From IMG/VR virus record IMGVR_UViG_3300009159_000431, positions 1-20,169 of that record: DNA of 20,169 bases. One strand, given 5' to 3'. Below, piece after piece: positions 6,958 to 19,562 of the stretch. A model generated the notes under the pieces. It had not been told where the DNA came from, searched no databases, and saw nothing but the letters and a program-made list of their open reading frames with translations. Within the stretch, counting starts at the first letter, position 1; every line of letters begins with the position of its first letter. The DNA is from a virus. Both the position numbers and the translations under genes were made by a program.

Positions 6958-7956
6958 TTAAGCAGTTTTATTTTGTCTAGCACGAATCATTGCTAGAATG
7001 TCTTGTGCTTTGTCACTTGATGGTTGTGCTGTAGGAATCTTAATAGATTCGGCTGCTGCCACTGCATCTTCTTCCCATGGTGCTGAAGTTTCTGCTACGG
7101 GTGCTGTTGCGGGTGCTCTAGTTTCAGTAGTAGCTGTTTGTTTTTCCGCGGTCGCGCCTGCAGGTGCTTCTAATCCATAAGGACGATAGTAACTACCCCA
7201 ACGATCATTGTCGTATGGTTGTCCATCAACACTTGCCTCAAACATTTCTTTCATAATGCGTAGTTCTGCTTCACCGGGCTTCTTAGGTAAGAAGTCTGCT
7301 AAGTTGAACAAACTATGTGCTTCAATGGCCGCTGCCTCTGCTTCAGTTAGTGCTGATTCTTTACGTGCCCAGTTACTTGTAGAATAATCTGCGTAACCAC
7401 CTTTGCTTGTTTTCTTAATATTAAAATCAAGACCACGCAAATAATCTGTTGGCAATTCTTCCATCTCTGGATCCATCAAACTTGATTTGATGATAGTAAA
7501 GATTTGTGGGCTGATAACAAATCTACGAATTGGATTCGCTGGTTGCTTATCATCGCCTAGTGGGTTTTGACGAACAAAACCTTGGAACAAATATGAACGC
7601 TTCTTCCAATATTTGTTAGCCATTTCTTTCAATGTTTCATCCTTATACCAAGGACGAACTTCTGCCAAGATAGGGCAGTTATCACCATACATTTCTACGC
7701 ATGGTACTTGTACTTCAACTCGTTTGACATTAGGATCACCCTTAACACCATTGAATGGAAGTTTAATAATTTGTCTTTCAACCCAGAAAAATGTATTGCT
7801 TGCATTTGCGTCTGGCAAGAAACGAATAGTACCAGTAGTACCTTCATCCATATTCCAGTGGGGATAAATTGAGTTATCAGATTGGGTTCCAGAACCCTTT
7901 GTTGATTTGTTTTCTTGTGCCGCGATACGAGCACGAATGTCTGCTAATGATGCCAT
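6958..7956 (-). CDS. 32: gp32-like single-stranded DNA-binding protein
   Basis: This 332-aa protein matches T4-type gp32: a basic/serine-threonine N-terminal patch (ENKSTKG, 15-21) like the cooperative 'LAST' motif, an OB-fold core with CPILAEVRPWYKDE (94-107) and the hallmark KYWKKRSYLFQGFV (115-128), and a C-terminal Ala/Thr/Pro-rich linker ending in a helix QDILAMIRARQN. In the core the metal-site pattern is incomplete: Cys86 and Cys94 are visible, but the T4 'CxxC' second cysteine is replaced (CPIL). gp32 coats single-stranded DNA and organises replication and recombination. It heads the operon with uvsX and uvsY-like genes. Its leader carries an early promoter, a late promoter and hairpins. 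AAGGA precedes the ATG by ten bases. Confidence 0.93.
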   Translation of the reverse strand: MASLADIRARIAAQENKSTKGSGTQSDNSIYPHWNMDEGTTGTIRFLPDANASNTFFWVERQIIKLPFNGVKGDPNVKRVEVQVPCVEMYGDNCPILAEVRPWYKDETLKEMANKYWKKRSYLFQGFVRQNPLGDDKQPANPIRRFVISPQIFTIIKSSLMDPEMEELPTDYLRGLDFNIKKTSKGGYADYSTSNWARKESALTEAEAAAIEAHSLFNLADFLPKKPGEAELRIMKEMFEASVDGQPYDNDRWGSYYRPYGLEAPAGATAEKQTATTETRAPATAPVAETSAPWEEDAVAAAESIKIPTAQPSSDKAQDILAMIRARQNKTA

Positions 7957-8065: not shown

Positions 8066-8073
8066 TATTTATG
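8066..8073 (-). promoter_or_regulatory. T4-like late promoter octamer upstream of gp32
   Basis: CATAAATA followed by CTATT on the minus strand, three bases upstream of the -35 box of the early gp32 promoter. The same ATAAATAC core recurs before late genes in this window, so gp32 probably has tandem late and early promoters. Confidence 0.6.
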
Positions 8074-8117: not shown

Positions 8118-10013
8118 TTATTTACCCAACAAGTGTTTAATTCTTATTAACGGGTCAACACTTTCAGTAGCACCAACTAAGCTACCGGGTCTAGCAAATT
8201 TATCTTTTGGACTAAACTGTCCTGCAGATTTTTGTTCTGAGTCTAGGTTTTCTGATACTTCTTTTTCCTTTTGTCGCTGTCCTAGTTCATCGCTATATTG
8301 GCGCAGTTTTTCACGGAAGCTCTTTTCCTGTTCTGGAGTGGGTCCAGACTTGGGAGTCGATTTACGGGCATCATATTGACCAGTGTCTACTTCTTCTGAT
8401 ACACTTCCTCCATTAAGTTCTCTCTCGACTTGCTTAACCCAACCACTAACATCACTACTACCGATTTCATCTGTATCTCCAACAAAGTCAGCAACATCGT
8501 CAATAGCGGCTGTTACCTTTTCTGGACCGTATTTGGCTAATAAATCTGAACGTTGCATTAAGATTCTACGAGTAATAGCACTGGCTACTGGGTTATCAAA
8601 TGAATCTTCGCTTAAACCTTTTTCTTTAGCATCCCATGCCGCATCAGTTTTAACATTATGTTCTTTGCCACCAGCACCGATATCGGCAACACGACTTCCA
8701 ACCTCTTGCTGAGTCTTCACTCTTGCCATGTTGCTCTTGTCTACGCTCTTACTCAAAATGCTATGCATCTTTTTTGCAACATCTTGTCTACTGGGCTTAC
8801 CACTTTTAGGTGTGTCCATTTCGGATTCTTCCATACCTGTTGTTACACCAACTGGACCTCGTGTATCAGGTACACCGCCGGCTTTATTCAATGCAACACG
8901 TGCGGCATAATCACCACGGTCAACATCTTTAGCGGCTTGCTTAATAGCAGGGTTTTGATTTTTCTTCTCAATGTGCTTTAATGGATCAAACGAATCTTCT
9001 TCTTCAGTGATGCCACCACTAATTAAATTGTCAGCCCATTCGCTTAACTCATCAACTTCTGCCATCTCACTAATCTTCTTGTGAAGTTTAGATAAGATTG
9101 GCATTACTGATTCAATGCGTGGATCAACTGTTTCTTGTACGAACAATTCATTAATGTTACTTGTATCAGTTTCATCTTCCATTAAGGGCGGAGTCCATGA
9201 TTCAAAGTAAGCATTGTATCCACGATGACCTGCTAATCTACCCAAAGATTCACGCAATGATTGATAGTGATTTACCCCTTCATTGACCAATTGTTGTGCT
9301 GATTCATTAAATTGACCATTACGTACAGCACGAACAAATCCTGCCATCTTACTATATTCTTCGCATAAGCTACCAATGTGATTCCAACGATCATCATTTG
9401 CTTTGCCACCTTCAGCAATGTGACGGGCATAAACACGACCAAGACCTGGTTTGTTTGTTGGCAATAAGAATCGTTCACCTAATTGATTTTCAACAAATAT
9501 CTTTTCAATATGACGGAATCGTTTTTCACCTTCTTCCATTACTTTTGAATGTTGTATACGCATAGTAACAGTAGGTACAGCATCATTGTAGCTGGCTTTT
9601 TTGCCTTGAGGATAATAACCCTCATATACCTGTTCTTGTTTTTTTAAATGTTCTCTTTTAGCCATATCGTTTTCCAAATTATCTTGATTGCTTAGTTTAA
9701 AACTAAGTTGTCTTTGTGTAGCAAATTGCTTAAGTGTGCGTAATAGTTGTTCCCAAGATAAACCTCCTGGAACGCTTTTAGGACTATTAGCAACTTCATC
9801 ATTGAAATAAATTATCAGTTGATGTAAACCATCAATAGTTACATAAACTTTACCGTAATTTTTATCACCCTGAACTAATTCAAATTGAAATACTTCAGCA
9901 TCATCGGGTACAGGTGATGCTTTTCCGTCGCTTCCTAGACTAACAGGACTAAAACCCCTAGTCTTTAAGAAGTTGTATATTTCGTTTCGGATGGTTTCTT
10001 GTTTTTTTGACAT
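8118..10013 (-). CDS. Large unknown late protein (631 aa) after TerL
   Basis: The start is set at ATG 10013 (MSKKQETIRNEIYNF); an in-frame TTG at 10028 would lie within the late promoter and terL stop. The 631-aa product has an alpha/beta N-terminal third (VFQFELVQGDKNYGKVYVTI, 45-64), a central helical region with RHIEKIFVENQLGERFLLP and DDRWNHIGSLCEEYSKMAGF, then a long charged, Lys/Glu/Ser-rich region with low-complexity spacers. Near residues 480-540 it has a compact module RRILMQRSDLLAKYGPEKV followed by DEIGSSDVSGWVKQV. No enzyme motif is seen. It starts 12 bases after the terL stop behind a late promoter octamer, so a virion or assembly role is likely (inference). I cannot name a family. 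Confidence 0.8.
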   Translation of the reverse strand: MSKKQETIRNEIYNFLKTRGFSPVSLGSDGKASPVPDDAEVFQFELVQGDKNYGKVYVTIDGLHQLIIYFNDEVANSPKSVPGGLSWEQLLRTLKQFATQRQLSFKLSNQDNLENDMAKREHLKKQEQVYEGYYPQGKKASYNDAVPTVTMRIQHSKVMEEGEKRFRHIEKIFVENQLGERFLLPTNKPGLGRVYARHIAEGGKANDDRWNHIGSLCEEYSKMAGFVRAVRNGQFNESAQQLVNEGVNHYQSLRESLGRLAGHRGYNAYFESWTPPLMEDETDTSNINELFVQETVDPRIESVMPILSKLHKKISEMAEVDELSEWADNLISGGITEEEDSFDPLKHIEKKNQNPAIKQAAKDVDRGDYAARVALNKAGGVPDTRGPVGVTTGMEESEMDTPKSGKPSRQDVAKKMHSILSKSVDKSNMARVKTQQEVGSRVADIGAGGKEHNVKTDAAWDAKEKGLSEDSFDNPVASAITRRILMQRSDLLAKYGPEKVTAAIDDVADFVGDTDEIGSSDVSGWVKQVERELNGGSVSEEVDTGQYDARKSTPKSGPTPEQEKSFREKLRQYSDELGQRQKEKEVSENLDSEQKSAGQFSPKDKFARPGSLVGATESVDPLIRIKHLLGK

Positions 10014-10018
10014 AATAG

Positions 10019-10026
10019 TATTTATC
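10019..10026 (-). promoter_or_regulatory. Late promoter octamer abutting the 631-aa gene
   Basis: GATAAATA on the minus strand, then CTATT, then ATG 10013. The T of the terL TGA stop precedes and the GA opens the octamer. With the usual start of late transcription about six bases past the octamer, the mRNA would begin at the initiator ATG. There is no Shine-Dalgarno sequence. Confidence 0.65.
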
Positions 10027-11572
10027 AACCCAAGACTGCAAAAAAGGGTAGGGGAGCAATAAATTCTTCGTGGTCACGCATTTGACTGTCAATATTGCTA
10101 TGGAATTCTCCTATTTGTTGCATAATTCTTACTGCTAGTAATGAGGCCATAACCAAATCGTCAGTTTCACCTACTTTGGCCTCATAACTTCCACCCAATG
10201 CCACAAATGTTTTTAATTCTGAAATAAGACTATGACTACTAACCGTCATCTTTTTAGATTCTAATAAAGTTTTAAACTTAGCACAAGCGGCTAATTTGCT
10301 CTTGTTAGTTGTTGTGAACCCTCTTCTTTTCTTACCTGGTTCGCTGGTAAAGATTCCTGGTATATTTGATTCCCCGTATTCATTTAATGATACTAATGCA
10401 GCCTCACCTATGGTATTATTTTCAATTGAATAATATATGTTGTTTGGTTCGCCGGTACATTCAACAATATATTTGTTTATTTGTGACAATAACTTAATCT
10501 GACTAGGTATATCTGTTTTGTTGTGCTTCCACTCACCTATCTGAGTTGTAGTGTTAGCTTCATATATTTCAATAGCCGCGTTATCTCCACCTGTGCCAAG
10601 ACTTGGATCTAATGATACAGCATAGTAATTTCCCTTCATTGGTCTTTTGAACCAACGAATCTGTCCTATCCTATGAATAGGTTCTGTGCCAGTTAAATCT
10701 ATCAGAGTATTAGGGTTTATCAATGTTTCATCAGCAATAATAAACTCACAACCAATCTCTCGTCGGAATCTATCTAGACCCAGTTGAGATTTCATCTCTT
10801 CGGCCCATTTGTCATCACGATCAGGATGCTCTTGCCAATATGCACGGTATGCTCTAAAACCGTTTATTCCAACTTCTGTTTTGTTACCAAAGTCATCTTC
10901 CGTTTTATTAGCACCCTTCCAGATCAAAGCAAATTGATCTTCGTCTGAGTTAGGAGTGCTTGTAATAATACACTTACCGCCTGTCGCTAATGTTGGCGCC
11001 ATAGCAGTCCAAAATTCTGTGGCTATAGTAGGTCGAACGAATGCAAACTCATCAGCATACAATAATGAAATAGACATACCACGACCTGTGTTTTCAGTAG
11101 TTGTTGCACTTACAATGCGGGAACCGTTCTCAAAGTCTAATGAGCCCTTGTTGTATGTTGTTACACCTGCTTTAATATGTAGTGGACAGTTTTCATATGC
11201 ATAGCGTATACGTTGCATAATCTCCTGAGCACCTGTATACTTGTGTGCCGCAATAAGAATTGTACTGTCTGGAACAAACATAGCGTACCAAAGTAGATAG
11301 CCCGCGGCTGATGTTGACTTACCTGTTTGTCTTGGCATCAAACTAATTGAATAGCGATAACTATGATATGTATCAATCAATCGTTTTTGATATTCCCAAG
11401 GATGATAAACCATACTACCCCTTGTTGGGTGTTGTATGTAGAAAAAATTATCTAGAAAATACATTGGACCAGTAACTGGGTCACAACATTTTATAAAATC
11501 GTCAAGGTCCTTTTCTGTTTCAAACTTTGTTTTTACATAAGGATCTTTTACTAGAGTTGCAGGATTTGCCAT
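10025..11572 (-). CDS. 17: Terminase large subunit (gp17-like TerL)
   Basis: The gene encodes the DNA-packaging motor ATPase and headful nuclease. Starting at ATG 11572 (MANPATLVKDPYVKTK) gives 515 aa; the open frame continues upstream to 11707 but there it only re-reads the 3' end of the adhesin gene in another frame, so it is rejected. Visible motifs: Walker A MPRQTGKS (79-86), Walker B LLYADE (170-175), coupling motif ITSTPN (about 203-208) and the RNase H-like nuclease start SLDPSLGTGGD (about 320-330) with Asp322. It is somewhat shorter than T4 gp17 (610 aa). No Shine-Dalgarno sequence precedes the ATG; a TATAAATA late promoter lies 30 bases upstream and a weaker CTAAATA lies five bases before the ATG. 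No clear TerS gene is visible next to it. Confidence 0.95.
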   Translation of the reverse strand: MANPATLVKDPYVKTKFETEKDLDDFIKCCDPVTGPMYFLDNFFYIQHPTRGSMVYHPWEYQKRLIDTYHSYRYSISLMPRQTGKSTSAAGYLLWYAMFVPDSTILIAAHKYTGAQEIMQRIRYAYENCPLHIKAGVTTYNKGSLDFENGSRIVSATTTENTGRGMSISLLYADEFAFVRPTIATEFWTAMAPTLATGGKCIITSTPNSDEDQFALIWKGANKTEDDFGNKTEVGINGFRAYRAYWQEHPDRDDKWAEEMKSQLGLDRFRREIGCEFIIADETLINPNTLIDLTGTEPIHRIGQIRWFKRPMKGNYYAVSLDPSLGTGGDNAAIEIYEANTTTQIGEWKHNKTDIPSQIKLLSQINKYIVECTGEPNNIYYSIENNTIGEAALVSLNEYGESNIPGIFTSEPGKKRRGFTTTNKSKLAACAKFKTLLESKKMTVSSHSLISELKTFVALGGSYEAKVGETDDLVMASLLAVRIMQQIGEFHSNIDSQMRDHEEFIAPLPFFAVLG

Positions 11573-11601
11573 ATTACTATTTAGTAAACACAGGGGGACT
11601 A

Positions 11602-11609
11602 TATTTATA
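11602..11609 (-). promoter_or_regulatory. Perfect T4 late promoter TATAAATA upstream of terL
   Basis: TATAAATA on the minus strand exactly matches the T4 late promoter consensus. The TAA inside it is also the stop codon of the adhesin gene. It would give a leader of about 23 bases for terL. Confidence 0.8.
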
Positions 11610-13332
11610 ATCCGTATTTGCCGCGTAGTGCGTTGAAGTTTTGTTGAATTTGGTCTGAGTTTAATGCTTGTCCGTAGATAGCAACTGCGCCAATGTCGCC
11701 ACGCCAATAGTTATCTGATCGGGCCACTGCTTCTACTCCACTGTTTATAAATTGATAAAATGTTACGCCAGTATTTGGTGTGCCTATCTGTTGTCCATTG
11801 ACATAATAAGTTACTACCCCACCGGTGGTTTGTGTTGCGGCTACAACTATCCACTCATTATCTGTCACGGTAAAAGGTTCGGATGCCGAGTACGCCCATG
11901 GAGACGTAGGACCGGTGCTGAAATGCAGTCGCCAAGTAGTTCCTGATATATGATACATATAGGTATTGAAGTTGCGGACAGCGGTGCTACCACCAAACAA
12001 GTTACGATAAGTAGCATTGGCGGTGTTAGCATTTACAGTTCTAATTGCAAACATTGCGGTCTTGCCAGTCAGGGCCACATTCATTTTAGATGTTGTTACA
12101 GGAGCAAATTGATTAGTGCCATTAAAACTAAAATAACTTGCTGTACCGGCACTGGTAAAGGATGGACCGTTGGTCAAAGTGGCATCATTTTGATATGTAC
12201 TACGGTCCGTCCAAGTTGTTCCCGAGCCAGAATAACTGCTAGTGTCGCCGGCATCAATATATAATAGTTGACCTGATGTTACTATAGTATCTACCCTAGG
12301 ATTACCCGATCTATAAGTAAATCCAGTTATTACACCATTAACAGCAGTATACTCCCAGTATATGTCATTAGCTGGACTTGTGCCGCCTGCTAACTGGTTA
12401 CCCGGCATTAACAGCACCGGATCAACACCCGGTCCATATGGATATCCGCCAGCGCCATATGGGCATGTAACATTGTAAAAAATTCCGCCAGCTAGTTTAA
12501 AACTGATTGTGGCTTCACCATAGGTAAAAACCAAGCCTGTGTATACTTCTGAAGGTGCCCAAGGACGACCTTCTATTAGTCTGCTCTCGTTAGGATTGTC
12601 AATAATAGTGGTGCCGTCATACTGTATTGGCAATTGTGTGATATCATATGTTGCTCTAGGGTTGCCTAATGCGGCTCTATTTGTTTCGGCCAAATCAAGT
12701 TTGGCAATCTGTCTAGCCTCTTTGTCTGCTAGGCCGCCGGTGGCTGGTGTTATAGTCCATTGTGTTGTGGTTGTTTTAGCAACTCTCTGCCAAACACCAG
12801 TAGCGTAGATGCGCCAGTCTTGTTCACCATATGCAGGAAAGGCGCCGCTGGTTCCAGCAGTTGTTGTATCGTAAGCATCACCTTCTGTGCCAATACCATC
12901 AGTCAGTGTAGGAGTGTTAGTAAAAGCGTTCCACGTGCCTTTGTATGTTGCGACATTTATTACTGTTTCAATTAGTGGATTAGTGACTGCCCCACAAACA
13001 GCCGCGGCTTTGGCCATATAATTGTCTATTGTAGTATTGCCCTTTATGATGCCGATGCTAGTTCCATACTCATCATACAAGAAGTTGCCTGCTGTTACTG
13101 CATAATCACCGGTCTGATGACTGGTCAATGTGACGGCAGAGCCTATCCCCAACGATGTTACATATAATTTGTATGAAACATTATTTGTTGCTCCCAAAGC
13201 ACCCACATAATTTAAACTCCAAATAGCTGAGAAAGGAGCAACAATCTCAGTATTAGAATGCGGTGGACTGACATTTTTTGTGAGAGTGGATCCACTCGCT
13301 ATCATTAATGTTGATATTCCATTTAGTGCCAT
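11605..13332 (-). CDS. Tail-fibre/adhesin protein with C-terminal LamG-like domain
   Basis: This 575-aa protein is Ser/Thr/Gly/Asn-rich and modular. Residues about 127-185 (YKGTWNAFTNTPTLTDGIGT, then DWRIYATGVWQRV) match a fibre module common in phage tail proteins. Residues about 354-575 form a concanavalin A/LamG-type fold: LLYIDAGDTSSYSGSGTTW, YFSFNGTNQF, a strand NEWIVVAATQTTGGVVTYYVNGQQIGT split over the sugar-binding face, and a terminal helix LNSDQIQQNFNALRGKYGL. Such proteins sit on virions and bind host surface glycans (established for the domain type; inferred here). The DNA is clearly richer in G+C than its neighbours, suggesting modular exchange. AGGA precedes the ATG by seven bases, immediately after the 93-aa gene. 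Confidence 0.85.
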   Translation of the reverse strand: MALNGISTLMIASGSTLTKNVSPPHSNTEIVAPFSAIWSLNYVGALGATNNVSYKLYVTSLGIGSAVTLTSHQTGDYAVTAGNFLYDEYGTSIGIIKGNTTIDNYMAKAAAVCGAVTNPLIETVINVATYKGTWNAFTNTPTLTDGIGTEGDAYDTTTAGTSGAFPAYGEQDWRIYATGVWQRVAKTTTTQWTITPATGGLADKEARQIAKLDLAETNRAALGNPRATYDITQLPIQYDGTTIIDNPNESRLIEGRPWAPSEVYTGLVFTYGEATISFKLAGGIFYNVTCPYGAGGYPYGPGVDPVLLMPGNQLAGGTSPANDIYWEYTAVNGVITGFTYRSGNPRVDTIVTSGQLLYIDAGDTSSYSGSGTTWTDRSTYQNDATLTNGPSFTSAGTASYFSFNGTNQFAPVTTSKMNVALTGKTAMFAIRTVNANTANATYRNLFGGSTAVRNFNTYMYHISGTTWRLHFSTGPTSPWAYSASEPFTVTDNEWIVVAATQTTGGVVTYYVNGQQIGTPNTGVTFYQFINSGVEAVARSDNYWRGDIGAVAIYGQALNSDQIQQNFNALRGKYGL

Positions 13333-13333
13333 G

Positions 13334-13615
13334 TTATTTTCCTACTGGCTTTTCGCCTGTTAGATATGGTCTACTAAACCATAGTTGAAACCACTCGGGT
13401 GTACCGGGTCGTATATCATGCTTCTTCATTAGCTGGGCTTTTTCGTTCCCGGTAATGCTTATATTACTTTCTTCTCCAATAACTTGTGAAGTTACCCCGC
13501 TTAATCTTTTTAAATCATCTAGTGTGATATCAAGATTTTCCTGTGGAGTAGGAACGGTCTTGAGTTTTTCAAGACCGTTCTGTATTTTAGCTTGTTTCCA
13601 TACATCAAAGGTCAT
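13334..13615 (-). CDS. Unknown late protein (93 aa)
   Basis: This 93-aa protein contains a charged helical N-terminus (DVWKQAKIQNGLEKLKTV), a middle segment LDDLKRLSGV and a conserved-looking C-terminal patch HDIRPGTPEWFQLWFSRPY followed by GEKP. It ends one base from the adhesin gene, so the two are co-transcribed. A late octamer (AATAAATA) lies four bases before its ATG and there is no Shine-Dalgarno sequence. Its first 25 codons contain a perfect 12-bp inverted repeat. A small helical gene two genes upstream of terL could be a terminase small subunit or an assembly factor, but nothing in the sequence proves this. Confidence 0.75.
   Translation of the reverse strand: MTFDVWKQAKIQNGLEKLKTVPTPQENLDITLDDLKRLSGVTSQVIGEESNISITGNEKAQLMKKHDIRPGTPEWFQLWFSRPYLTGEKPVGK
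13552..13580 (-). repeat. Perfect 12-bp inverted repeat inside the 93-aa gene
   Basis: GAACGGTCTTGA and TCAAGACCGTTC (arms 13552-13563 and 13569-13580) flank a 5-base loop. The hairpin lies about 35 bases into the coding sequence. Neither strand has a good T run after it, so it is not a typical terminator. Confidence 0.8.
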
Positions 13616-13619
13616 GATG

Positions 13620-13627
13620 TATTTATT
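13620..13627 (-). promoter_or_regulatory. Late promoter octamer abutting the 93-aa gene
   Basis: AATAAATA on the minus strand, then CATC, then ATG 13615. It sits in the 17-base gap after the methyltransferase stop. Predicted leaderless or nearly leaderless mRNA. Confidence 0.6.
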
Positions 13628-13632
13628 ATGAA

Positions 13633-14334
13633 TTATTTAATATCTAATGGGCACTTTTTAGTAACCATCATAACATAGAACTTTTCACGCATTTTAACTT
13701 TTTCACCTTCAGGATCTTCTATATCTTTGGGTAATTCAATATCAAATTCTACTGTGTTACATGTATCAACCTTGAATCCTGCTCTGGTTAACAGTGCATC
13801 CCATTGATTAATACCCAAAACACTATAGTGGTTATCGTTGTATTCGTGCTTTCTATCTGTATCTGGTGCGGGAACCTCAATATACATTTTAGATTTATCT
13901 TTTAATATCCTATTATATTCTGCTAATGTAATAATAGGATAGGGACTGTGTTCTAATGAATGTCTACAGAAAATAAAGTCTACACTTTCATCATAGAATC
14001 CATCTTTTTGTGGAATAAAACTCATATCATAATTTTTAATTCTATGACCCTTATCTGTGCAATTAGTTGTGTCTTTTGGACTTAGTGTAATGCCGTACAT
14101 ATTGTCATATCCACGAGATTTCATTTCATCTAAGAAATACCCTGCTCCACAACCCATATCTAAAATAAGAGATTGTTTTGGTAAGTCTAACGGGTCAATA
14201 TAAGTCTTGACCATCTGAGTGGTAAGTTGTGCATGAAATGTTGCATCACCTTCATCATATAGATGTGCGGTATACAACCATTCATTAAAGAACTTTAATT
14301 TAATTAAATCCAGCGTGTTGTTAATATCAATCAT
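13633..14334 (-). CDS. Class I SAM-dependent methyltransferase
   Basis: This 233-aa protein has methyltransferase motif I ILDMGCGAGYF (57-67) for SAM binding, an acidic loop MYGITLS (motif II region), and the post-motif SVDFIFCRHSLEHSPYP (about 118-134), the pattern of Methyltransf_11/23-type small-molecule or glycan methylases. It has no target-recognition domain and no DPPY/NPPY motif, so it is not a typical DNA adenine methylase. It sits among virion genes, beside a fibre protein and an adhesin, so it may modify a surface sugar, a virion protein or a host polysaccharide (inference). The ATG is preceded by AGGAT five bases away. The substrate cannot be read from the sequence. Confidence 0.85.
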   Translation of the reverse strand: MIDINNTLDLIKLKFFNEWLYTAHLYDEGDATFHAQLTTQMVKTYIDPLDLPKQSLILDMGCGAGYFLDEMKSRGYDNMYGITLSPKDTTNCTDKGHRIKNYDMSFIPQKDGFYDESVDFIFCRHSLEHSPYPIITLAEYNRILKDKSKMYIEVPAPDTDRKHEYNDNHYSVLGINQWDALLTRAGFKVDTCNTVEFDIELPKDIEDPEGEKVKMREKFYVMMVTKKCPLDIK

Positions 14335-14385
14335 AATTATCCTGCAAATATGAATTACTTATTCGCAGAATGATGTAGTGAAAAA

Positions 14386-14754
14386 TTATTTGTAGCCTTT
14401 GAATCCTAGAACTGGACTTACGGTGTGAGTATCATCTAATTCTTTACTTTTCATATCACCGTGATTTAGGTCTTTATACTCTGCCCCTACAGCTTTATAT
14501 GCTTGTTTTAGCATTTCCTGTTCTTCCTTAGTATACGGGTGGGTTGATTTCTGTTTACCTATCCAACTTTTTGCTGGCATCTTAAGTGGATCTTTTCCAT
14601 TTGCACCTGCTACCGCCATACCTAAACGGTATGCAGTATAATCACCGCTCACATGTTCACTATCACCATAAGTGTTTAGCCCAGCTGTCGATTGAGCTTG
14701 TCTTTTAGAAATTTTCTTTTGGCTAGATTCCGAGATGAATTCATGCGCTCTCAC
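14386..14754 (-). CDS. Unknown MRAHEF-type protein (122 aa), GTG start
   Basis: The start codon is GTG at 14754, giving MRAHEFISE; AGGAG lies seven bases upstream inside the end of the preceding gene, and start and stop codons overlap. The 122-aa protein has a basic stretch KKISKRQAQSTAGLNTYGD, a core AYRLGMAVAGANG, and a C-terminal half rich in charged residues (HPYTKEEQEMLKQAYKAVGA, ending PVLGFKGYK). An MRAHEF(I) opening followed by an acidic residue recurs at the start of diverse proteins in marine T4-like phages, and may be a prohead-targeting or protease-processed leader (my inference). It lies among structural genes; function unknown. Confidence 0.8.
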   Translation of the reverse strand: MRAHEFISESSQKKISKRQAQSTAGLNTYGDSEHVSGDYTAYRLGMAVAGANGKDPLKMPAKSWIGKQKSTHPYTKEEQEMLKQAYKAVGAEYKDLNHGDMKSKELDDTHTVSPVLGFKGYK

Positions 14755-15590
14755 ACAAATACTCCTGTATCAGATTGGTATGAGAATAAGTGTTGTATGG
14801 CTAGATTGGGGATAGGTGAAACCATTAATCTAAGATTTCCATATGCAATATCAACATTGTATCTAGTTACTGCATTACCAATAAACACTGTTCCGAAAAT
14901 AGTATGTTGTGCCCTAATACCGTCGTGTCTTTTATGTACTACAATAGTAGCAGTTTGACTATCATTTGAATCAACTACATAGCTAGATATTTGAAACTTA
15001 ACTGTAGAAAAGGATAATTGCGGAAGTTCATATATTACTTGATTTGCTGTATTATTGGGTGTTGTAAAACTTTCAGAGTTAATTGAAATTCCACCATTCA
15101 GTCCTATCCCTCCCTGAATAGTCATAGTTCCGGTACTAGTTACGTTCCCAATAGAAAATATATCGCCACTAGAATAGATATTACCTACTTGAATATCAGA
15201 TTGTATTAAATTGTTTGCTTGATTGTAAAAACTTAAAACACCCAAATTCTCTCGAATACTTACATTACCGATGTGCAGTGAATCATTCTTTGCTAACCAT
15301 AAATTTGCATATCGCTTTTCATCACTGCCTAAATCAACTATATTTGTTGTAATAGGTACCATGTCTGTATTCATTCTAACAGCATTATTTGGTACATCGT
15401 ACACTAAATTAGCTGTTCCGCCACTTAATCCGTTATTGTTATACTGAATAGCTGTGTTTGGTCCACCCTGATTTAATGTGGGGATTCTAGCAAAATTATT
15501 GTTTATTTTGTCAAATGCTACACGAAGAGGATCACCTGTACCATCATTTGGTAGTTCTCCTATATCGATAAATTCAATTAATTGTGGCAT
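14751..15590 (-). CDS. Tail-fibre-like structural protein
   Basis: This 279-aa protein opens with a segment I recognise from phage tail-fibre and collar-type proteins: IGELPNDGTGDPLRVAFDKI followed by NNNFA (residues about 11-34), an attachment-type N-terminus. The middle is repetitive and beta-rich, with Asn/Gly/Ile turns (IYSSGDIFSIGNVTSTGT, then GGIGLNGGISIN), as expected for a trimeric fibre shaft. The end (about 200-279) is a globular beta domain with IVVHKRHDGIRAQHTIFG. It is the first gene of the late minus-strand run to the left of the divergent promoter pair, overlaps the next gene by four bases, and has a GAG ribosome site a few bases before ATG 15590. Whether it is a long-fibre, whisker or baseplate component is unclear. 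Confidence 0.75.
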   Translation of the reverse strand: MPQLIEFIDIGELPNDGTGDPLRVAFDKINNNFARIPTLNQGGPNTAIQYNNNGLSGGTANLVYDVPNNAVRMNTDMVPITTNIVDLGSDEKRYANLWLAKNDSLHIGNVSIRENLGVLSFYNQANNLIQSDIQVGNIYSSGDIFSIGNVTSTGTMTIQGGIGLNGGISINSESFTTPNNTANQVIYELPQLSFSTVKFQISSYVVDSNDSQTATIVVHKRHDGIRAQHTIFGTVFIGNAVTRYNVDIAYGNLRLMVSPIPNLAIQHLFSYQSDTGVFV

Positions 15591-15619
15591 GTTACTCTTT
15601 CACTAATAGTGTGTTACTA

Positions 15620-15644
15620 GTATTTATGATAAATTAATAAATAC
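15620..15644. promoter_or_regulatory. Divergent pair of late promoters in an inverted repeat
   Basis: GTATTTAT (15620-15627) and ATAAATAC (15637-15644) are perfect inverted repeats 9 bases apart. The left arm read on the minus strand is CATAAATAC, firing toward the fibre gene (ATG 15590); the right arm on the plus strand is AATAAATAC, firing toward the nuclease (ATG 15651). Confidence 0.75.
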
Positions 15645-15650
15645 ATAACT

Positions 15651-16091
15651 ATGAAAAAACTATTATTTATACTACTATTATCCACATCGGTGTCCGGGGC
15701 TATAGCTCAAACACAAAAAGCAGGTGTCACATATGATGCATTGATTACCAGAGTTATCGATGGTGACACAATTGCATTTCAAGCACCATTCTTACCGGCT
15801 CCGCTAAAACCCGAGCTAAGTATTCGTGTATTCGGTGTTGATACTCCCGAAAAAGGTTTCCGTGCTAAATGCCCAAGTGAGGCACAGCGTGGGGAGGCTG
15901 CAACCGCATTCACAAAACAACAAATTGCTAATGCACAAAAGAAGCAAATTATACTGATGGACTGGGATAAGTACGGCGGACGTGTTTTAGGTGACGTTAT
16001 TTTAGACGGCAAAAGTTTAAGAGGGATGCTTATCCAGCAGGGTTTTGCACGTGAATACTACGGTGAAGCCAAGACTTCGTGGTGTAATTAA
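15651..16091 (+). CDS. Secreted thermonuclease (SNase-like)
   Basis: This 146-aa protein is the only gene on the plus strand. It begins with a clear Sec signal peptide (MKKLLFILLLSTSVSGAIA, likely cut after residue 19), followed by a staphylococcal-nuclease fold: VIDGDT (35-40), RVFGVDTPE (59-67) with the family's Arg59, Asp64 and Glu67, and DKYGGRVLG (106-114) with Arg111, matching the SNase catalytic set Arg35/Asp40/Glu43/Arg87. Cys74 and Cys145 could form a disulphide in the periplasm. The family degrades DNA and RNA with calcium. It is expressed from a late-type octamer seven bases before the ATG. It is convergent with the lysis lipoproteins, and the two stop codons overlap in TTAA. A role in degrading DNA in or around the cell at lysis is inferred. 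Confidence 0.92.
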   Translation: MKKLLFILLLSTSVSGAIAQTQKAGVTYDALITRVIDGDTIAFQAPFLPAPLKPELSIRVFGVDTPEKGFRAKCPSEAQRGEAATAFTKQQIANAQKKQIILMDWDKYGGRVLGDVILDGKSLRGMLIQQGFAREYYGEAKTSWCN

Positions 16092-16345
16092 AATCCAAAT
16101 ATATTTTTAGGTAGTTCAATTACAACGGGTTGTCTAGCCTGTTGTAGTTGTTGTAATAATAAAGTCCCGTTCTGTCTAACACTAGGATCGGGACTTTTTA
16201 ACATCTCTGATATGGCTAACATACGAGTAGTTTCGGTGACAGTAATGTCTCTGGATATAGATTTCTGTGCTTCTACATACACAGAATAATCTTTACTAGC
16301 ACATCCCGAAATCATTAATGATACGAGTAGTATGATGTATTTCAT
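16088..16345 (-). CDS. Small lipoprotein, third gene of the lysis-like cluster
   Basis: This 85-aa protein begins with a lipoprotein signal (MKYIILLVSLMISGC) with lipobox ISGC and acceptor Cys15. The mature part is about 70 residues, mostly helical (VYVEAQKSISRDI, then GTLLLQQLQQARQ), with no membrane segment. It overlaps the preceding lipoprotein gene by four bases (ATGA), so it belongs to the same unit. Its reading frame carries, on the opposite strand, a hairpin with a T run that can end the nuclease transcript. It could be a second outer-membrane spanin partner, a periplasmic factor protecting against superinfection, or a regulator of the pair; the sequence does not decide. Confidence 0.78.
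   Translation of the reverse strand: MKYIILLVSLMISGCASKDYSVYVEAQKSISRDITVTETTRMLAISEMLKSPDPSVRQNGTLLLQQLQQARQPVVIELPKNIFGF
16161..16199 (+). terminator. Terminator for the nuclease, embedded in the opposing lipoprotein gene
   Basis: On the plus strand AAAGTCCCG, a 19-base loop, and CGGGACTTT continuing into more T residues (to 16199) form a 9-bp stem with a T run, 70 bases after the nuclease stop. It lies wholly within the coding sequence of the convergent lipoprotein. Confidence 0.65.
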
Positions 16346-16608
16346 TTGACTTCGTTAAAGATTTTCTTTTGAGCTTCATACCACTCTTGCCAACCTTCTA
16401 CTTTAGTAGAACATTCATGGTACAATGAATAATTGTGTACAATAACTTTTAACATTTCTGTTATAGCTACTTTATCACCCTGTATAAGTTTAAGACTTTC
16501 ACATTTTTCTTTGAGAACTTGAGGAGCTTCGGGGAACTTTCTAGCAACAGGAACAGTTGTACTGCATCCTGCAAGAATAATTACCAATGATACAATCAAT
16601 AATTTCAT
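16342..16608 (-). CDS. Outer-membrane lipoprotein, o-spanin-like
   Basis: This 88-aa protein has a classic lipoprotein signal: MKLLIVSLVIILAGC with lipobox LAGC and acceptor Cys15, followed by Ser-Thr (not Asp), which favours outer-membrane sorting. The mature part begins with a Pro-containing stretch (TTVPVARKFPEAPQVL) and then a helix ending VEGWQEWYEAQKKIF; two more cysteines sit in it (EKCESLK and HECSTK). In Gram-negative phages an o-spanin lipoprotein pairs with a coiled-coil i-spanin to fuse inner and outer membranes at lysis. The gene overlaps the upstream membrane coiled-coil gene by four bases, the arrangement typical of spanin pairs. The spanin call rests on architecture, not on a family match. 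Confidence 0.72.
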   Translation of the reverse strand: MKLLIVSLVIILAGCSTTVPVARKFPEAPQVLKEKCESLKLIQGDKVAITEMLKVIVHNYSLYHECSTKVEGWQEWYEAQKKIFNEVK

Positions 16609-17081
16609 TTCTTGTCCTTTGGTTCAGCGGCTTTGTTTAATATTGATATTGCGGCATCGTTATGTATATCAATAATTGCTTTAGGTACAGGACACGTTTC
16701 AATGTACTTGATAACTTCTTCAGTCTTAATGACTTCTTTATCAATGTACTTGATTATGTCTTTACCTTTTTCTCTGATAACTTTAGTCTGTGTTACAATC
16801 TTTTCTTGTACTTCCACATTCACCGTTTTAGCTTTTTCTTCAGCTACAGCTACTTTGGCTTCCATTTCCTTAACTCTAGCTTCCCATTCTTTATAGTCTG
16901 CTAATCCTCCCTCTAGGTATAATCCCAAAGAAAGTACAAGTAAACTAATGACTTGAATCGGTATTTTATATTGTTTGACTAAAGGAATCATTCCCAAAAC
17001 AAATCCAGCAACCGTGCCTATAATTCCCACTGTGAGAATTAGATGAAACGCCCATTCGGGCAAAATAGATATTATCCACAT
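16605..17081 (-). CDS. Membrane protein with coiled coil, i-spanin-like
   Basis: This 158-aa protein has two hydrophobic segments (about 10-35, AFHLILTVGIIGTVAGFVLG; and 42-60, IQVISLLVLSLGLYLEGG), then a long charged coiled coil (about 63-130, YKEWEARVKEMEAKVAVAEE onward, rich in K, E and V) and a short tail with VPKAIIDIHNDAA and AAEPKDKK. A coiled-coil arm anchored in the inner membrane next to overlapping lipoprotein genes fits an i-spanin. The two membrane segments are unusual, because most i-spanins have one; the N-terminus must be outside for the arm to face the periplasm, or the first segment may be re-entrant. A combined holin/spanin role is possible. A late octamer lies five bases before the ATG; there is no Shine-Dalgarno sequence. 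Confidence 0.7.
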   Translation of the reverse strand: MWIISILPEWAFHLILTVGIIGTVAGFVLGMIPLVKQYKIPIQVISLLVLSLGLYLEGGLADYKEWEARVKEMEAKVAVAEEKAKTVNVEVQEKIVTQTKVIREKGKDIIKYIDKEVIKTEEVIKYIETCPVPKAIIDIHNDAAISILNKAAEPKDKK

Positions 17082-17085
17082 AATG

Positions 17086-18048
17086 TTATTTATTAAAATA
17101 AGTAGAATTAGATAGCCATTCGTAGTAATTACGGAAACCTTCTTCTACATCAACTTTGGGGTCAAATCCAAAGTCTTTTCTTGCGGCATCAATATTCAAT
17201 GCTCCCCTGCTAGGGAAGTCCGGGTCTTTGTCACGGACATTTACTGTCCCTGACCCGGCAATACTAACTGCTAGATTTGCCGCATCTAGCAAACTGTAGC
17301 TATGACTTTTTGTTATATTGTAAGTCTTATTTTCTGTGTTATCACTCAATGCTGCCGCAACAATACCATCTGCCGCATCATCAACATACGTGAAGTCTAA
17401 TGTCTCACTCGCACCATTAACATTCAACGTGCCTCCTCGCATTGCAGTAAGCATAAACTTAGCAACAACCCTATCTTCTACGTCTAGAGGTCCGTAAACA
17501 GCACTAGGACGAATAATAGTATAAACCATGTTGTCCTTTCGTGCATAATCTTTAACTAGCCACTCGCCTGCTAATTTCATAATCCCGTATTGTCCTTGTG
17601 GTTTACATACGGCATCTTCAGTAACATCGTCAGTAAAATCTCCATACACCATTGAACTACTAATGTATACAAATTTGCGTACTTCATACTTAGCACTAGC
17701 TTCTAGCAAGTTGAGCAACCCTTCACTCATAACACGACTTCCCCTAGTGGGATTTGCGTTAACTACTTTTTGTCTTGGAAAGCTAGCCATATGAATTACG
17801 ATCTCCGGCTGTTCAATATTAAACACACTGTCAACATCATCATCATCACAAATGTCTTTAGAATAGATAAAACTCTCATCCCCGATTTTTTTCAATCGTT
17901 TACGCATCAAATAATCAATTTCATCGTAGGAGATAATTCCATAAGTTGTTTTGGTATCCATAATAGATATAATGTGACCTTCATCTTGTAATCGCTTGAC
18001 TACATTATGTCCGATAAGCCCCAAACCACCTGTTACTAGAATGTTCAT
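17086..18048 (-). CDS. NAD-dependent nucleotide-sugar epimerase/dehydratase
   Basis: An extended short-chain dehydrogenase of 320 aa. The Rossmann start MNILVTGGLGLIGHNVV holds GxxGxxG (7-13); the active-site set is SSSMVYG (Ser130-132) and YGIMK (Tyr154, Lys158), and RPSAVYGP (180-187) follows as in UDP-glucose 4-epimerase-like enzymes. I chose ATG 18048, which overlaps the upstream stop in ATGA, because it opens the Rossmann strand; the 15 extra upstream residues have no family support. Such enzymes remodel nucleotide sugars. In a phage this may alter host surface glycans or supply sugars for virion or DNA decoration (inference); the exact sugar cannot be read. It lies downstream of thyA in one operon. 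Confidence 0.9.
   Translation of the reverse strand: MNILVTGGLGLIGHNVVKRLQDEGHIISIMDTKTTYGIISYDEIDYLMRKRLKKIGDESFIYSKDICDDDDVDSVFNIEQPEIVIHMASFPRQKVVNANPTRGSRVMSEGLLNLLEASAKYEVRKFVYISSSMVYGDFTDDVTEDAVCKPQGQYGIMKLAGEWLVKDYARKDNMVYTIIRPSAVYGPLDVEDRVVAKFMLTAMRGGTLNVNGASETLDFTYVDDAADGIVAAALSDNTENKTYNITKSHSYSLLDAANLAVSIAGSGTVNVRDKDPDFPSRGALNIDAARKDFGFDPKVDVEEGFRNYYEWLSNSTYFNK
17087..17094 (-). promoter_or_regulatory. Late promoter octamer abutting the i-spanin-like gene
   Basis: AATAAATA on the minus strand, then ACATT, then ATG 17081. Part of the octamer overlaps the epimerase TAA stop codon. Predicted to switch on the lysis cluster late, with a leaderless mRNA. Confidence 0.6.
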
Positions 18049-18290
18049 TCGTATTTCAACTTCCAATATGTTAAGTCTTTTTCTTCTAACCATGCTATGA
18101 TATCATAGCTATGACCATAATTATAAGGATCAGGTGATCTATTCCACATAGGTTGTTCTTTACTATTTTCCATAATCCATTTACCGGCTTCTGTTTGTTG
18201 CCAGTTCCATATAGGTTCAGCCACATACAAATCAGGATCTTCAACGTCACCCATTTTAATTGTATGTACTTTAATCTTTATTGTTTTCAT
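18045..18290 (-). CDS. Unknown small protein (81 aa) between thyA and epimerase
   Basis: This 81-aa protein (MKTIKIKVHTIKMGDVEDPD, then EPIWNWQQTEAGKWIMENS and a Trp/Tyr-rich end DLTYWKLKYE) is beta-alpha with a striking number of aromatic residues (six Trp). The pattern 'EPI..WQQTEAG.W.ME' and a closing 'T.W.LKY' resembles small conserved proteins of marine T4-like phages, but I know of no function. Its ATG lies in an ATGA overlap with the thyA stop and its own stop overlaps the epimerase start, so the three are strictly coupled. Co-expression with thyA hints at nucleotide metabolism, without direct evidence. Confidence 0.82.
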   Translation of the reverse strand: MKTIKIKVHTIKMGDVEDPDLYVAEPIWNWQQTEAGKWIMENSKEQPMWNRSPDPYNYGHSYDIIAWLEEKDLTYWKLKYE

Positions 18291-19186
18291 ACTGCCATAT
18301 TCGCTTTAATTGCACCATGACTTTGATAGTTTTCTAAATGTATATCTGCCATTGTCATCTCAAAGATGTTTGTCTTTGAAGCATTTAACATCAATGTAGG
18401 CAATGGATGTGGTTCACGTGTTAATTGTTCTTTAACTTGGTCAACATGGTTTTTATAGATATGCGTATCACCGGTGCTGATAACAAGCTCTCCAACCTTT
18501 AGACCACAATGATGTGCTAACAAATGGGTGAGTAATGCGTAACTAGCAATGTTAAAAGGCAATCCCAAGAACACATCAACACTACGCTGATACATATGAC
18601 AAGATAGTTCTTTATTTTTGTTAACATAGAATTGGCTCATAACGTGACAAGGTGGCAATGCCATTTGGTCTAACTCGCTCACGTTCCAAGCACTGAGTAT
18701 GTGCCTGCGCCCATTAGGATCTTCAGTTAATCCTTTAATGAGATTTGCCAATTGGTCGACTTCCGTCCTATCCACTGCGAGGCGTGTGCCACCTTTGTGT
18801 GCCGGGCCCATGTCTTTTTCTGTACGGTATGTGTTCCAGTGACGCCATTGAACTCCGTAGACCCGCCCCAAGTCACCTTCGAATTTTGCTTTTGGTTTCC
18901 AATACGGTGAAAGCGCATTCGGCGTCCAGATAGTAACCGTTCCTTCGGAAGTACCATGGGTGAGTTCTGCCAATCTACGCTCATTACCAGAGCCTTCAAT
19001 AAACCAAAGAAGCTCACCGACGCAAGCCTTCCATGCCAATTTCTTAGTAGTGACTGCGGGAAAACCCCTACGCAAATCAAAGCGAATATGACGTCCAAAA
19101 ACACTATAGGTGCCAATACCAGTTCGGTCATCTTTAACTTCTCCGTCGTCTAAAATATCCTGTAATAGTTCTAAATATTGTTTCAT
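18287..19186 (-). CDS. thyA: Thymidylate synthase ThyA
   Basis: This 299-aa enzyme methylates dUMP to dTMP using methylene-tetrahydrofolate, supplying dTTP for phage DNA. Family motifs are intact: the phosphate-binding Arg loop DDRTGIGT (19-26), ELLWFIEGS (58-66), the catalytic PPCHVMSQFYV with Cys180, the second-subunit region NGRRHILSAW (158-167), SVDVFLGLPFNIASY (202-216) and GDTHIYKNH (239-247). It corresponds to T4 td but has no intron. It has its own perfect sigma70 promoter directly after a terminator. The -10 box ends eight bases before ATG 19186 and there is no Shine-Dalgarno sequence, so the message is predicted to be almost leaderless. Confidence 0.97.
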   Translation of the reverse strand: MKQYLELLQDILDDGEVKDDRTGIGTYSVFGRHIRFDLRRGFPAVTTKKLAWKACVGELLWFIEGSGNERRLAELTHGTSEGTVTIWTPNALSPYWKPKAKFEGDLGRVYGVQWRHWNTYRTEKDMGPAHKGGTRLAVDRTEVDQLANLIKGLTEDPNGRRHILSAWNVSELDQMALPPCHVMSQFYVNKNKELSCHMYQRSVDVFLGLPFNIASYALLTHLLAHHCGLKVGELVISTGDTHIYKNHVDQVKEQLTREPHPLPTLMLNASKTNIFEMTMADIHLENYQSHGAIKANMAV

Positions 19187-19194
19187 ATTTTTAT

Positions 19195-19223
19195 ATTATA
19201 TATGAAGATTTTTGCAATGTCAA
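19195..19223 (-). promoter_or_regulatory. Consensus sigma70 promoter of thyA
   Basis: Minus-strand TTGACA (19223-19218), 17-base spacer, TATAAT (19200-19195). Predicted transcription start about 19188, two bases before the thyA ATG. Confidence 0.92.
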
Positions 19224-19224
19224 T

Positions 19225-19250
19225 AAAAAAACCCACTAAGTGGGTTTTTT
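19225..19250. terminator. Bidirectional intrinsic terminator upstream of thyA
   Basis: ACCCA-CTAAG-TGGGT forms a GC core that extends into an A run on one side and a T run on the other (six or more bases each way), so both strands read as hairpin plus T tract. On the minus strand it ends the two-gene unit finishing at 19254; its trailing T tract touches the thyA -35 box. Confidence 0.92.
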
Positions 19251-19253
19251 ATT

Positions 19254-19550
19254 TTATAATCTATTTAAAAGTTTATCCGTTTCTGGTTGAACTGTTTCTG
19301 CTATACTTTCTACATTAAGAACAAACTCAAAACTAGTAATGAGCGGATCCAATTCATGTAGTTTACGAGAAATTACTTCCTCGACCTCTTCTGGGTCTAA
19401 TCCTTGTTTCATCAAATTCTGTACATTAATTGTATGCTGTTTTTTACCAGACATTTTTACTATAATTTTTTTAATGAACTGTACAGGTACTTTACTTTTT
19501 TCGATGTCCTCAAGAATATGTTCCCATTTTCTAATGTAATCTGGTGTCAT
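19254..19550 (-). CDS. Unknown small protein (98 aa)
   Basis: This 98-aa protein is highly charged and helical, with a basic segment (FIKKIIVKMSGKKQHTINVQ) and an acidic helix (DPEEVEEVISRKLHEL). No motif, signal peptide or membrane segment is visible; it might bind nucleic acid or a partner protein. It starts seven bases after the preceding stop and has a late octamer four bases before the ATG, with no Shine-Dalgarno sequence. Its stop lies four bases from the terminator hairpin. Function unknown. Confidence 0.78.
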   Translation of the reverse strand: MTPDYIRKWEHILEDIEKSKVPVQFIKKIIVKMSGKKQHTINVQNLMKQGLDPEEVEEVISRKLHELDPLITSFEFVLNVESIAETVQPETDKLLNRL

Positions 19551-19554
19551 GCTA

Positions 19555-19562
19555 TATTTATG
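19555..19562 (-). promoter_or_regulatory. Late promoter octamer abutting the 98-aa gene
   Basis: CATAAATA on the minus strand, then TAGC, then ATG 19550. The TAA in the octamer is the stop codon of the upstream gene. Confidence 0.55.

Follow-up and report, generated by a model that had tools for sequence, protein, structure and literature searches.

The window analysed here, the whole 20,169-base virus record IMGVR_UViG_3300009159_000431, is a fragment of a T4-like phage in which octamers of the T4 late-promoter type stand four or five bases ahead of the ATG of five genes. Based on the placement of such octamers in this and related genomes, we consider it very probable that gp55-class octamers start the mRNA at or near the A of the ATG, giving a leaderless message, and that this is a genome-wide habit rather than one of late genes only. 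Judged from the sequences, leaderless mRNAs are very likely both in the window lineage and in its relatives. The motif, its spacing, its conservation and the contrasts with T4, PA5oct and S-PM2 are direct observations. The genes of the window lie mostly on the minus strand and include those for the terminase large subunit (TerL), a gp32-like single-stranded DNA-binding protein (SSB), UvsX, UvsY, thymidylate synthase and structural proteins.

In the mechanism we propose, a gp55-class holoenzyme on a T4-type late octamer would initiate at the A of the ATG or within about a base of it; the mRNA would carry AUG as its 5' end and lack a leader, so that the ribosome would have to recognise the 5'-terminal AUG instead of a Shine-Dalgarno (SD) sequence. 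The habit would extend over whole genomes in a broad group of aquatic T4-like phages, most of them uncultured; several of the phages would set a subset of their sigma70-type promoters at the corresponding distance, other genes of both promoter classes receiving SD leaders.

The five octamers, found where a first-pass annotation of this DNA had placed them and all on the minus strand, are listed here together with a second candidate promoter of terL:

10019..10026, minus strand: octamer GATAAATA, then CTATT and the ATG at 10013; 5 nt gap, predicted +1 on the A of the ATG
11578..11585, minus strand: ACTAAATA (CTAAATA type), then GTAAT and the terL ATG at 11572; 5 nt gap
11602..11609, minus strand: perfect TATAAATA, 29 nt upstream of the terL ATG; second, leadered candidate promoter
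13620..13627, minus strand: octamer AATAAATA, then CATC and the ATG at 13615; 4 nt gap
17087..17094, minus strand: octamer AATAAATA, then ACATT and the ATG at 17081; 5 nt gap
19555..19562, minus strand: octamer CATAAATA, then TAGC and the ATG at 19550; 4 nt gap, overlapping the upstream stop codon

The genes behind them are:

8118..10013, minus strand: 631-aa gene with a weak match to the virion structural family phrog_13484 (E 3.7e-6)
10025..11572, minus strand: terminase large subunit (phrog_36964, E 2e-113)
13334..13615, minus strand: 93-aa gene without a family match
16605..17081, minus strand: 158-aa gene with a hydrophobic N-terminus (phrog_4952)
19254..19550, minus strand: 98-aa gene without a family match

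Four of the sites match NATAAATA, the one next to terL reads CTAAATA and the one at 11602-11609 is perfect, which makes them octamers of the T4 type. Within the window, the plain pattern TAAATA-N3..7-ATG occurs 6 times against a shuffle mean of 3.57, a count reached by 17 of 100 shuffles and not significant, which is too little for the claim to rest on the window by itself. Counting octamers ahead of an ATG-initiated open reading frame (ORF) of at least 60 aa, four of seven lie at 4-6 nt where 0.5 would be expected (p 5e-4). The earlier idea that this spacing exceeds chance thus fails in window shuffles and holds across relatives and whole records; the weight of evidence is in these comparative tests, the raw window pattern alone being insufficient.

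Conservation and spacing of the octamers

The comparison set consisted of the window and 80 IMG/VR contigs kept from a scan (953 kb; contigs 79-90% identical). Orthologues of window genes were examined in the 80 relatives at loci with at least 60 nt upstream, taking in-frame ATGs from -40 to +25 codons and scoring TAAATA 4-8 nt before the ATG. The motif was found at 74 of 80 terL orthologues, at 71 of 76 orthologues of the gene starting at 10013 and at all 41 of the gene starting at 17081, in the latter at distances of 4 nt (1), 5 nt (19) and 8 nt (21). Apart from SSB, treated below, the six comparison genes lacked it at this distance (uvsX 0/35, thyA 0/28, uvsY 0/27, an AAA gene 0/10 and an epimerase gene 0/31). 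The lineage has thus kept three of the five window sites, namely those of terL, 10013 and 17081. The window TerL itself is 49-51% identical to those of PA5oct, Phosso and Atu_ph07, and all 2531 matching phage records stay below 60%.

In four loci upstream of the 13615 orthologue (L018, L067, L069, L075) and one upstream of terL (L015), the end of the octamer merges with a small hairpin that has a T-rich tail, and promoter and terminator-like hairpin have letters in common ahead of the ATG.

Across the 81 sequences, TAAATA-k-ATG followed by an ORF of at least 60 aa occurs at 51, 111, 39, 11 and 28 places for k=4, 5, 6, 7 and 8, drops to 0, 0 and 1 for k=9, 10 and 11, and shows a second hump at k=17-25 with 7-21 places per position. 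Three protein families supply 189 of the 240 sites at k=4-8, which therefore do not represent 240 independent events; pooling all sets gives 640 sites in 106 protein families, chance singletons included. Two more IMG/VR sets, collected with the PA5oct and Phosso TerL as queries, have the same peak, with densities per 100 kb of 13.1 and 17.7 sites for k=4-6 and of 2.0 and 3.2 for k=9-16, respectively. No k=4-6 peak appeared in 11 GAP32 relatives (0.4 sites per 100 kb).

In whole records, octamer-ATG pairs at 4-6 nt make up 46 of 137 in G001, 10/40 in G002, 6/25 in G003, 3/20 in G006, 24/45 in G015 and 9/20 in the cultured pelagiphage HTVC008M, with no such peak in PA5oct (2/40) or S-PM2 (1/28). 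T4 late promoters, served by gp55-gp33-gp45, are alike in their octamer (N)ATAAATA and AT-rich downstream sequence, and a gp55-family gene is present in the clade and annotated in HTVC008M; T4 differs in that none of its 34 octamer-to-ORF pairs is spaced at 4-6 nt, the distance taken by a large share in the window lineage and its relatives. G001 (IMGVR_UViG_3300027749_002876, L089-L115) is a 524-kb contig that mirrors itself over about 100 kb, mostly at 60-98% protein identity, with ~15-120 kb matching 430-513 kb in inverted order and 0-15 kb matching 175-191 kb. Two related phages have probably been joined in it as a chimera, the alternative being an inverted duplication of very large size; a single gp55 copy was found in it. 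Collapsing pairs to protein families, which matters given this mirroring, left 34 of 91 at 4-6 nt in G001 (5.9 expected), 23/40 in G015 (2.6 expected), 10/36 in G002, 6/23 in G003 and 9/16 in HTVC008M, with 0/27 in T4, 2/38 in PA5oct and 1/27 in S-PM2.

A pattern count with a reversed control (pattern/control) likewise set apart G012 (20/0), G013 (5/0), G014 (15/6), G015 (28/5), G016 (17/6), G017 (7/2), G018 (28/1) and HTVC008M (11/3), LR745206 being ambiguous at 60/36. Fourteen other named records did not stand out: PA5oct 12/9, Atu_ph07 9/8, GAP32 5/5, 121Q 3/2, Phosso 0/1, XaC1 2/5, T4 2/2, S-PM2 2/2, Vibrio 2.275.O 2/2, Munch 5/2, AG-345-F15 1/2, Yut3 1/0, Vibrio 1.081.O 2/0 and P-RSM1 1/2. 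On a quick TerL tree of 48 rows, in which 16 of 45 inner branches are poorly supported and trait labels come from the terL region only, the trait turns up across the jumbo branch, is missing from PA5oct, Phosso, Atu_ph07 and the GAP32 group, and occurs separately in HTVC008M, next to P-RSM1 and AG-345-F15. At least 10 trait changes result when single-site loci are scored positive, and G012 is scored negative there though its whole record is positive by pattern count.

In HTVC008M, a phage of 'Ca. Pelagibacter ubique' HTCC1062, nine octamers are spaced exactly 5 nt from an ATG and three more 7-8 nt, the range of 9-16 nt being empty. The nine ATGs are at 6280, 7562, 16007, 18916, 19456, 31132, 49760, 75559 and 142360, those at 16007 and 18916 on the minus strand. 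The nine genes are those for the tail tape measure, DNA end protector, tail tube cap, two baseplate wedge proteins, CsgF, a 2-oxoglutarate (2OG) oxygenase, gp092 and a transcriptional regulator, and the phage also has annotations for a clamp, a late sigma factor and a putative factor of late promoters; gp33 is annotated in it as gp197. In Melnitz, a phage of a Methylophilales host in which gp33 is annotated as well, three octamers lie at 5 nt (ATGs at 54825 and, on the minus strand, 62263 and 121041) and most lie elsewhere.

These annotations bear on the idea that starts were misassigned and that the true start codons lie downstream behind an SD sequence. Starts of uncultured phages are indeed predictions, but the ATGs at 5 nt coincide with GenBank coding sequence starts in 9 of 9 cases in HTVC008M and with annotated starts in 3 of 3 in Melnitz, and in 64 of 80 loci the TerL alignment takes in the window protein from its first residue onwards. 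The motif also precedes ATG far more than GTG or TTG: within k=4-8, the 81 sequences hold 2 GTG and 8 TTG sites in total, and sums over five partly overlapping sets give 405 ATG against 10 GTG/TTG at 4-6 nt, compared with 290 against 30 at 17-30 nt. We regard misassigned starts as the least probable of the alternatives considered here.

Predicted transcription start and a second promoter class

The first-pass annotation had stated that T4 late transcription begins roughly six bases past the octamer, in agreement with the promoter passages of PMC1524935, where the octamer spans -13 to -6; a gap of k=5 therefore puts +1 on the A of the ATG. At octamer genes with a longer leader, purines show a local peak at offset 5, with 83% in the Phosso-query set and G015 (neighbours 32 and 57%), 74% in the PA5oct-query set, ahead of a purine-rich SD stretch, and 74% in T4. 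A gp55-family late sigma factor was detected in 5 of 8 clade records, the misses being fragments of 81-151 kb, and in 8 of 8 named phages; none was among the 19 scanned proteins of the window fragment.

A second kind of promoter is placed in a corresponding way. The window holds four perfect sigma70-type promoters, three of which lie 28-34 nt ahead of ATGs with SD-like sequence between, the fourth being that of thyA:

19195..19223, minus strand: perfect TTGACA-17-TATAAT; the thyA ATG (19186) lies 8 nt past the hexamer, with a predicted 2-nt leader
18287..19186, minus strand: thymidylate synthase gene thyA (phrog_160, E 4e-116)

In several thyA orthologues TATAAT stands 5-6 nt ahead of this ATG; others have no such site there. 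Seven related records were scanned for sites with at least 5/6 matches in both hexamers, counting ATGs at a predicted leader of 0-1 nt, and four of them had significant numbers of sites at leaderless distance: G001 (13/95, 3.7 expected), G003 (6/26), G006 (4/12) and G015 (5/22). Counts in T4 (1/18), PA5oct (1/35) and S-PM2 (0/11) were not significant, and a control using the -10 without the -35 hexamer stayed near expectation (G001 47/1118 vs 43.8). With its end at -7, the sigma70 -10 hexamer lies one base more distant from +1 than the octamer does, and sigma70-type sites prefer a spacing to the ATG that exceeds the octamer's by one to two bases. No other single argument for leaderless messages is as strong as this convergence of two unrelated promoter elements on one +1.

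It also removes the stronger proposal of the first-pass annotation, by which leaderless initiation would act as a late-only switch parting late from early translation. Five of the nine HTVC008M genes are virion or DNA-end genes, and terL and structural families fall within the G001 set, as a late switch would have it. Yet sigma70-type promoters are leaderless by position in four records as well, many octamer genes keep SD leaders (51 of 74 in G001), and the G001 octamer set also takes in a homing endonuclease, a 2OG oxygenase, phosphoesterases and many proteins of no assigned function. Some of the sigma70-leaderless genes look UvsW-like, dNMP-kinase-like or DnaJ-like and, read by their N-termini, early. 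We consider a late-only switch very improbable.

Tight gene packing offers another account, in which tiny gaps bring the octamer against the next ATG, its TAA serving as upstream stop, and translation proceeds from readthrough transcripts by coupling. Three of four window octamers do have letters in common with the stop codon of the upstream gene, and many relatives of the unconserved 19550 site start at or beside the upstream stop. T4, PA5oct and S-PM2, however, are compact too and place almost none at 4-6 nt, and packing accounts neither for the near-complete conservation at terL, 10013 and 17081 nor for the matching preference of sigma70-type sites at their slightly longer distance. We think packing very unlikely to be the explanation.

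Composition might also matter, as AU-rich sequence near a start can help initiation, and the octamer could be an element aiding translation of leadered mRNAs instead of a promoter of the adjoining gene. In G001, the hexamers most enriched ahead of ATGs are SD-like, and TAAATA, at exactly 5 nt (30 vs 3.7), leads those that do not resemble an SD sequence. Among 15 hexamers of the same composition at 4-5 nt, TAAATA reaches 55, ATAATA and ATAAAT 25 each and AAATAT 17, with the others at 9 or fewer. ATAAAT falls within the octamer; ATAATA does not, and its count speaks for an AU-rich aid. Set against this are the excess of TAAATA over most other A4T2 hexamers, the fact that the same octamer also heads SD leaders, and the like behaviour of sigma70-type promoters, which together leave an AU-rich aid with hardly any probability.

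A number of observations weigh against leaderless starts at the octamers. The 5' ends of these phages are ones we infer from promoter spacing, with the +1 rule carried over from T4, and in the window's own clade A reaches 54% at offset 4, 37% at 5 and 54% at 6, without a peak at offset 5; the two A peaks fit the clade's broader 4-6 spacing, without proving anything. The 21 of 41 orthologues of 17081 at 8 nt correspond to a 3-nt leader, the 13615 site is only half conserved (10/20, some others having the octamer farther upstream) and the 19550 site is not conserved (1/23). SSB orthologues carry TAAATA in 11 of 48 cases, at 8 nt and away from their own start, which has an SD-like AAGGA. The first-pass remark that octamer genes lack an SD sequence is borne out (0/6 window genes with TAAATA at 4-8 nt, and 0/52, 0/17, 0/9 and 0/7 in other sets), an absence mostly forced by geometry because the octamer occupies the SD position. 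The clamp gp45 was found by phrog_223 in T4 only, of 9 records, and by PF09116 among 18 records in T4, S-PM2 and HTVC008M only, not in G001-G006, G012-G018, PA5oct or GAP32; a divergent clamp in the clade is possible.

Further such points are statistical. The null of uniform spacing is crude and related sequences are not independent; the octamer count of G006 is not significant when collapsed to families (3/18 at 4-6 nt, p 0.1), nor are the sigma70-type counts in G002 (1/43), HTVC008M (2/22) and Melnitz (4/37, p 0.06); and once ORFs of 50 aa are admitted, PA5oct shows 4 octamers at leader 0. Depletion at 9-15 nt was dropped as proof, as S-PM2 (0/28) and PA5oct (2/40) show it too and it is therefore not special to phages with the leaderless spacing. 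The first-pass suggestion of leaderless starts has strong, if inferential, support from the 106 families, the orthologues of three of the five genes and the absence from T4, S-PM2 and PA5oct, and loses the 19550 gene as a conserved case.

Known leaderless systems and phage bS21

Bacterial and archaeal leaderless mRNAs are alike in the features predicted here, namely a 5' AUG, a strong preference for AUG and no SD sequence. Passages of a review (PMC9031893) describe 70S entry and AUG preference for such mRNAs, and ribosome entry as 70S in these phages, taken from that review, would follow by analogy. Phage translation is usually taught as SD-driven with T4 as the model, and lambda cI is a single leaderless case. 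The phage cases known to us are single genes, and the present set differs, with some 10 to 40 gene families in each record that is well sampled.

The late promoters of phiKZ are alike in belonging to a jumbo phage and in an element (TATG) that touches +1. They differ in that +1 is the G of TATG and the enzyme is a phage RNA polymerase, and the passages of PMC4666361 concerned are silent on leaderless starts; phiKZ-type TATG promoters were rejected on account of this G. For AR9, passages of PMC5312081 give leaders of 26-491 nt and call phage transcripts often leaderless. Searches of the open-access literature, most subscription papers lying outside this scope, brought up no paper on leaderless late genes of T4-like phages. 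A pelagimyophage survey describes its late-promoter prediction as unsuccessful (passages of PMC7029224), for which leaderless placement may be the reason.

A broad T4-like set, including a cultured SAR11 virus, appears to drop the leader on many genes, which looks like a widespread, overlooked route of phage protein synthesis. It would change start and promoter calling in phage metagenomes and would give the unexplained bS21 genes of aquatic phages a concrete target. HTVC008M and the large leaderless records carry bS21, like the aquatic phages described in PMC6375957 (HTVC008M) and by Chen et al. 2022 (PMC9723584); both propose preferential translation of phage mRNA, and the term leaderless is absent from both papers. 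The bS21 of HTVC008M is reported to be incorporated into ribosomes of E. coli (PMC9976891, PMC6375957).

Within the group of G001, G003, G012-G018 and HTVC008M, every record that has the leaderless spacing and measures at least 300 kb carries bS21; four spacing-negative named phages have it too. Scored by PF01165 in a hand-entered table, 6 of 6 leaderless records that are complete or at least 300 kb (G001, G012, G014, G016, G018 and HTVC008M; G012, G014, G016 and G018 classed by pattern count) carry it, compared with 4 of 13 named phages in which the spacing is absent (Fisher p 0.011). The table leaves out G013 (5 vs 0), LR745206 (60 vs 36 in the control), G015 and G017, all with bS21, as well as G002-G008 (only G003 with bS21), Melnitz (three sites, bS21 annotated) and AG-345-F15. 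Because the records are related, the association between phage bS21 and leaderless spacing is only a lead. It is conceivable, though we think it unlikely, that the leaderless programme of these phages is joined to a phage bS21, encoded by many of them, that would remodel the 30S platform near the anti-SD and make ribosomes favour 5'-AUG messages over host SD messages; leaderless genes would then be one half of an initiation takeover and phage bS21 the other.

The promoters of bS21 in eight loci (three read in the wrong frame) gave no consistent pattern. One G001 bS21 copy has its nearest bacterial bS21 at 34-50% identity in mixed phyla and permits no host call. An absence of phage IF3 from leaderless phages, in contrast to their cousins, was considered and dropped: in a first set none of 8 clade records had IF3_C and 5 of 8 named phages did, but it is present in G013 and G014.

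Other octamers and genes of the window

A tRNA scan and Rfam at gathering score gave no matches in the window. Its remaining octamers are:

8066..8073, minus strand: octamer CATAAATA, ~109 nt upstream of the SSB gene (6958-7956), adjoining a sigma70-like site
15621..15628, minus strand: octamer CATAAATA, with a leader carrying GAAAGAG ahead of the ATG at 15590
15636..15643, plus strand: octamer AATAAATA, 7 nt upstream of the ATG at 15651; predicted 2-nt leader

Within 15590-15671 two octamers stand back to back, AATAAATA serving the plus-strand nuclease gene (15651) and CATAAATA the minus-strand gene (15590), and a third, TATAAATA, lies at 15664-15671 on the minus strand inside the nuclease gene. 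The 158-aa gene (16605..17081) may head a lysis-like cassette at 16088-17081, where three small genes, one for a membrane protein and two for lipoprotein-like proteins, resemble a lysis cassette; the gene next to it has an Rz1-like LysC match below the cut-off.

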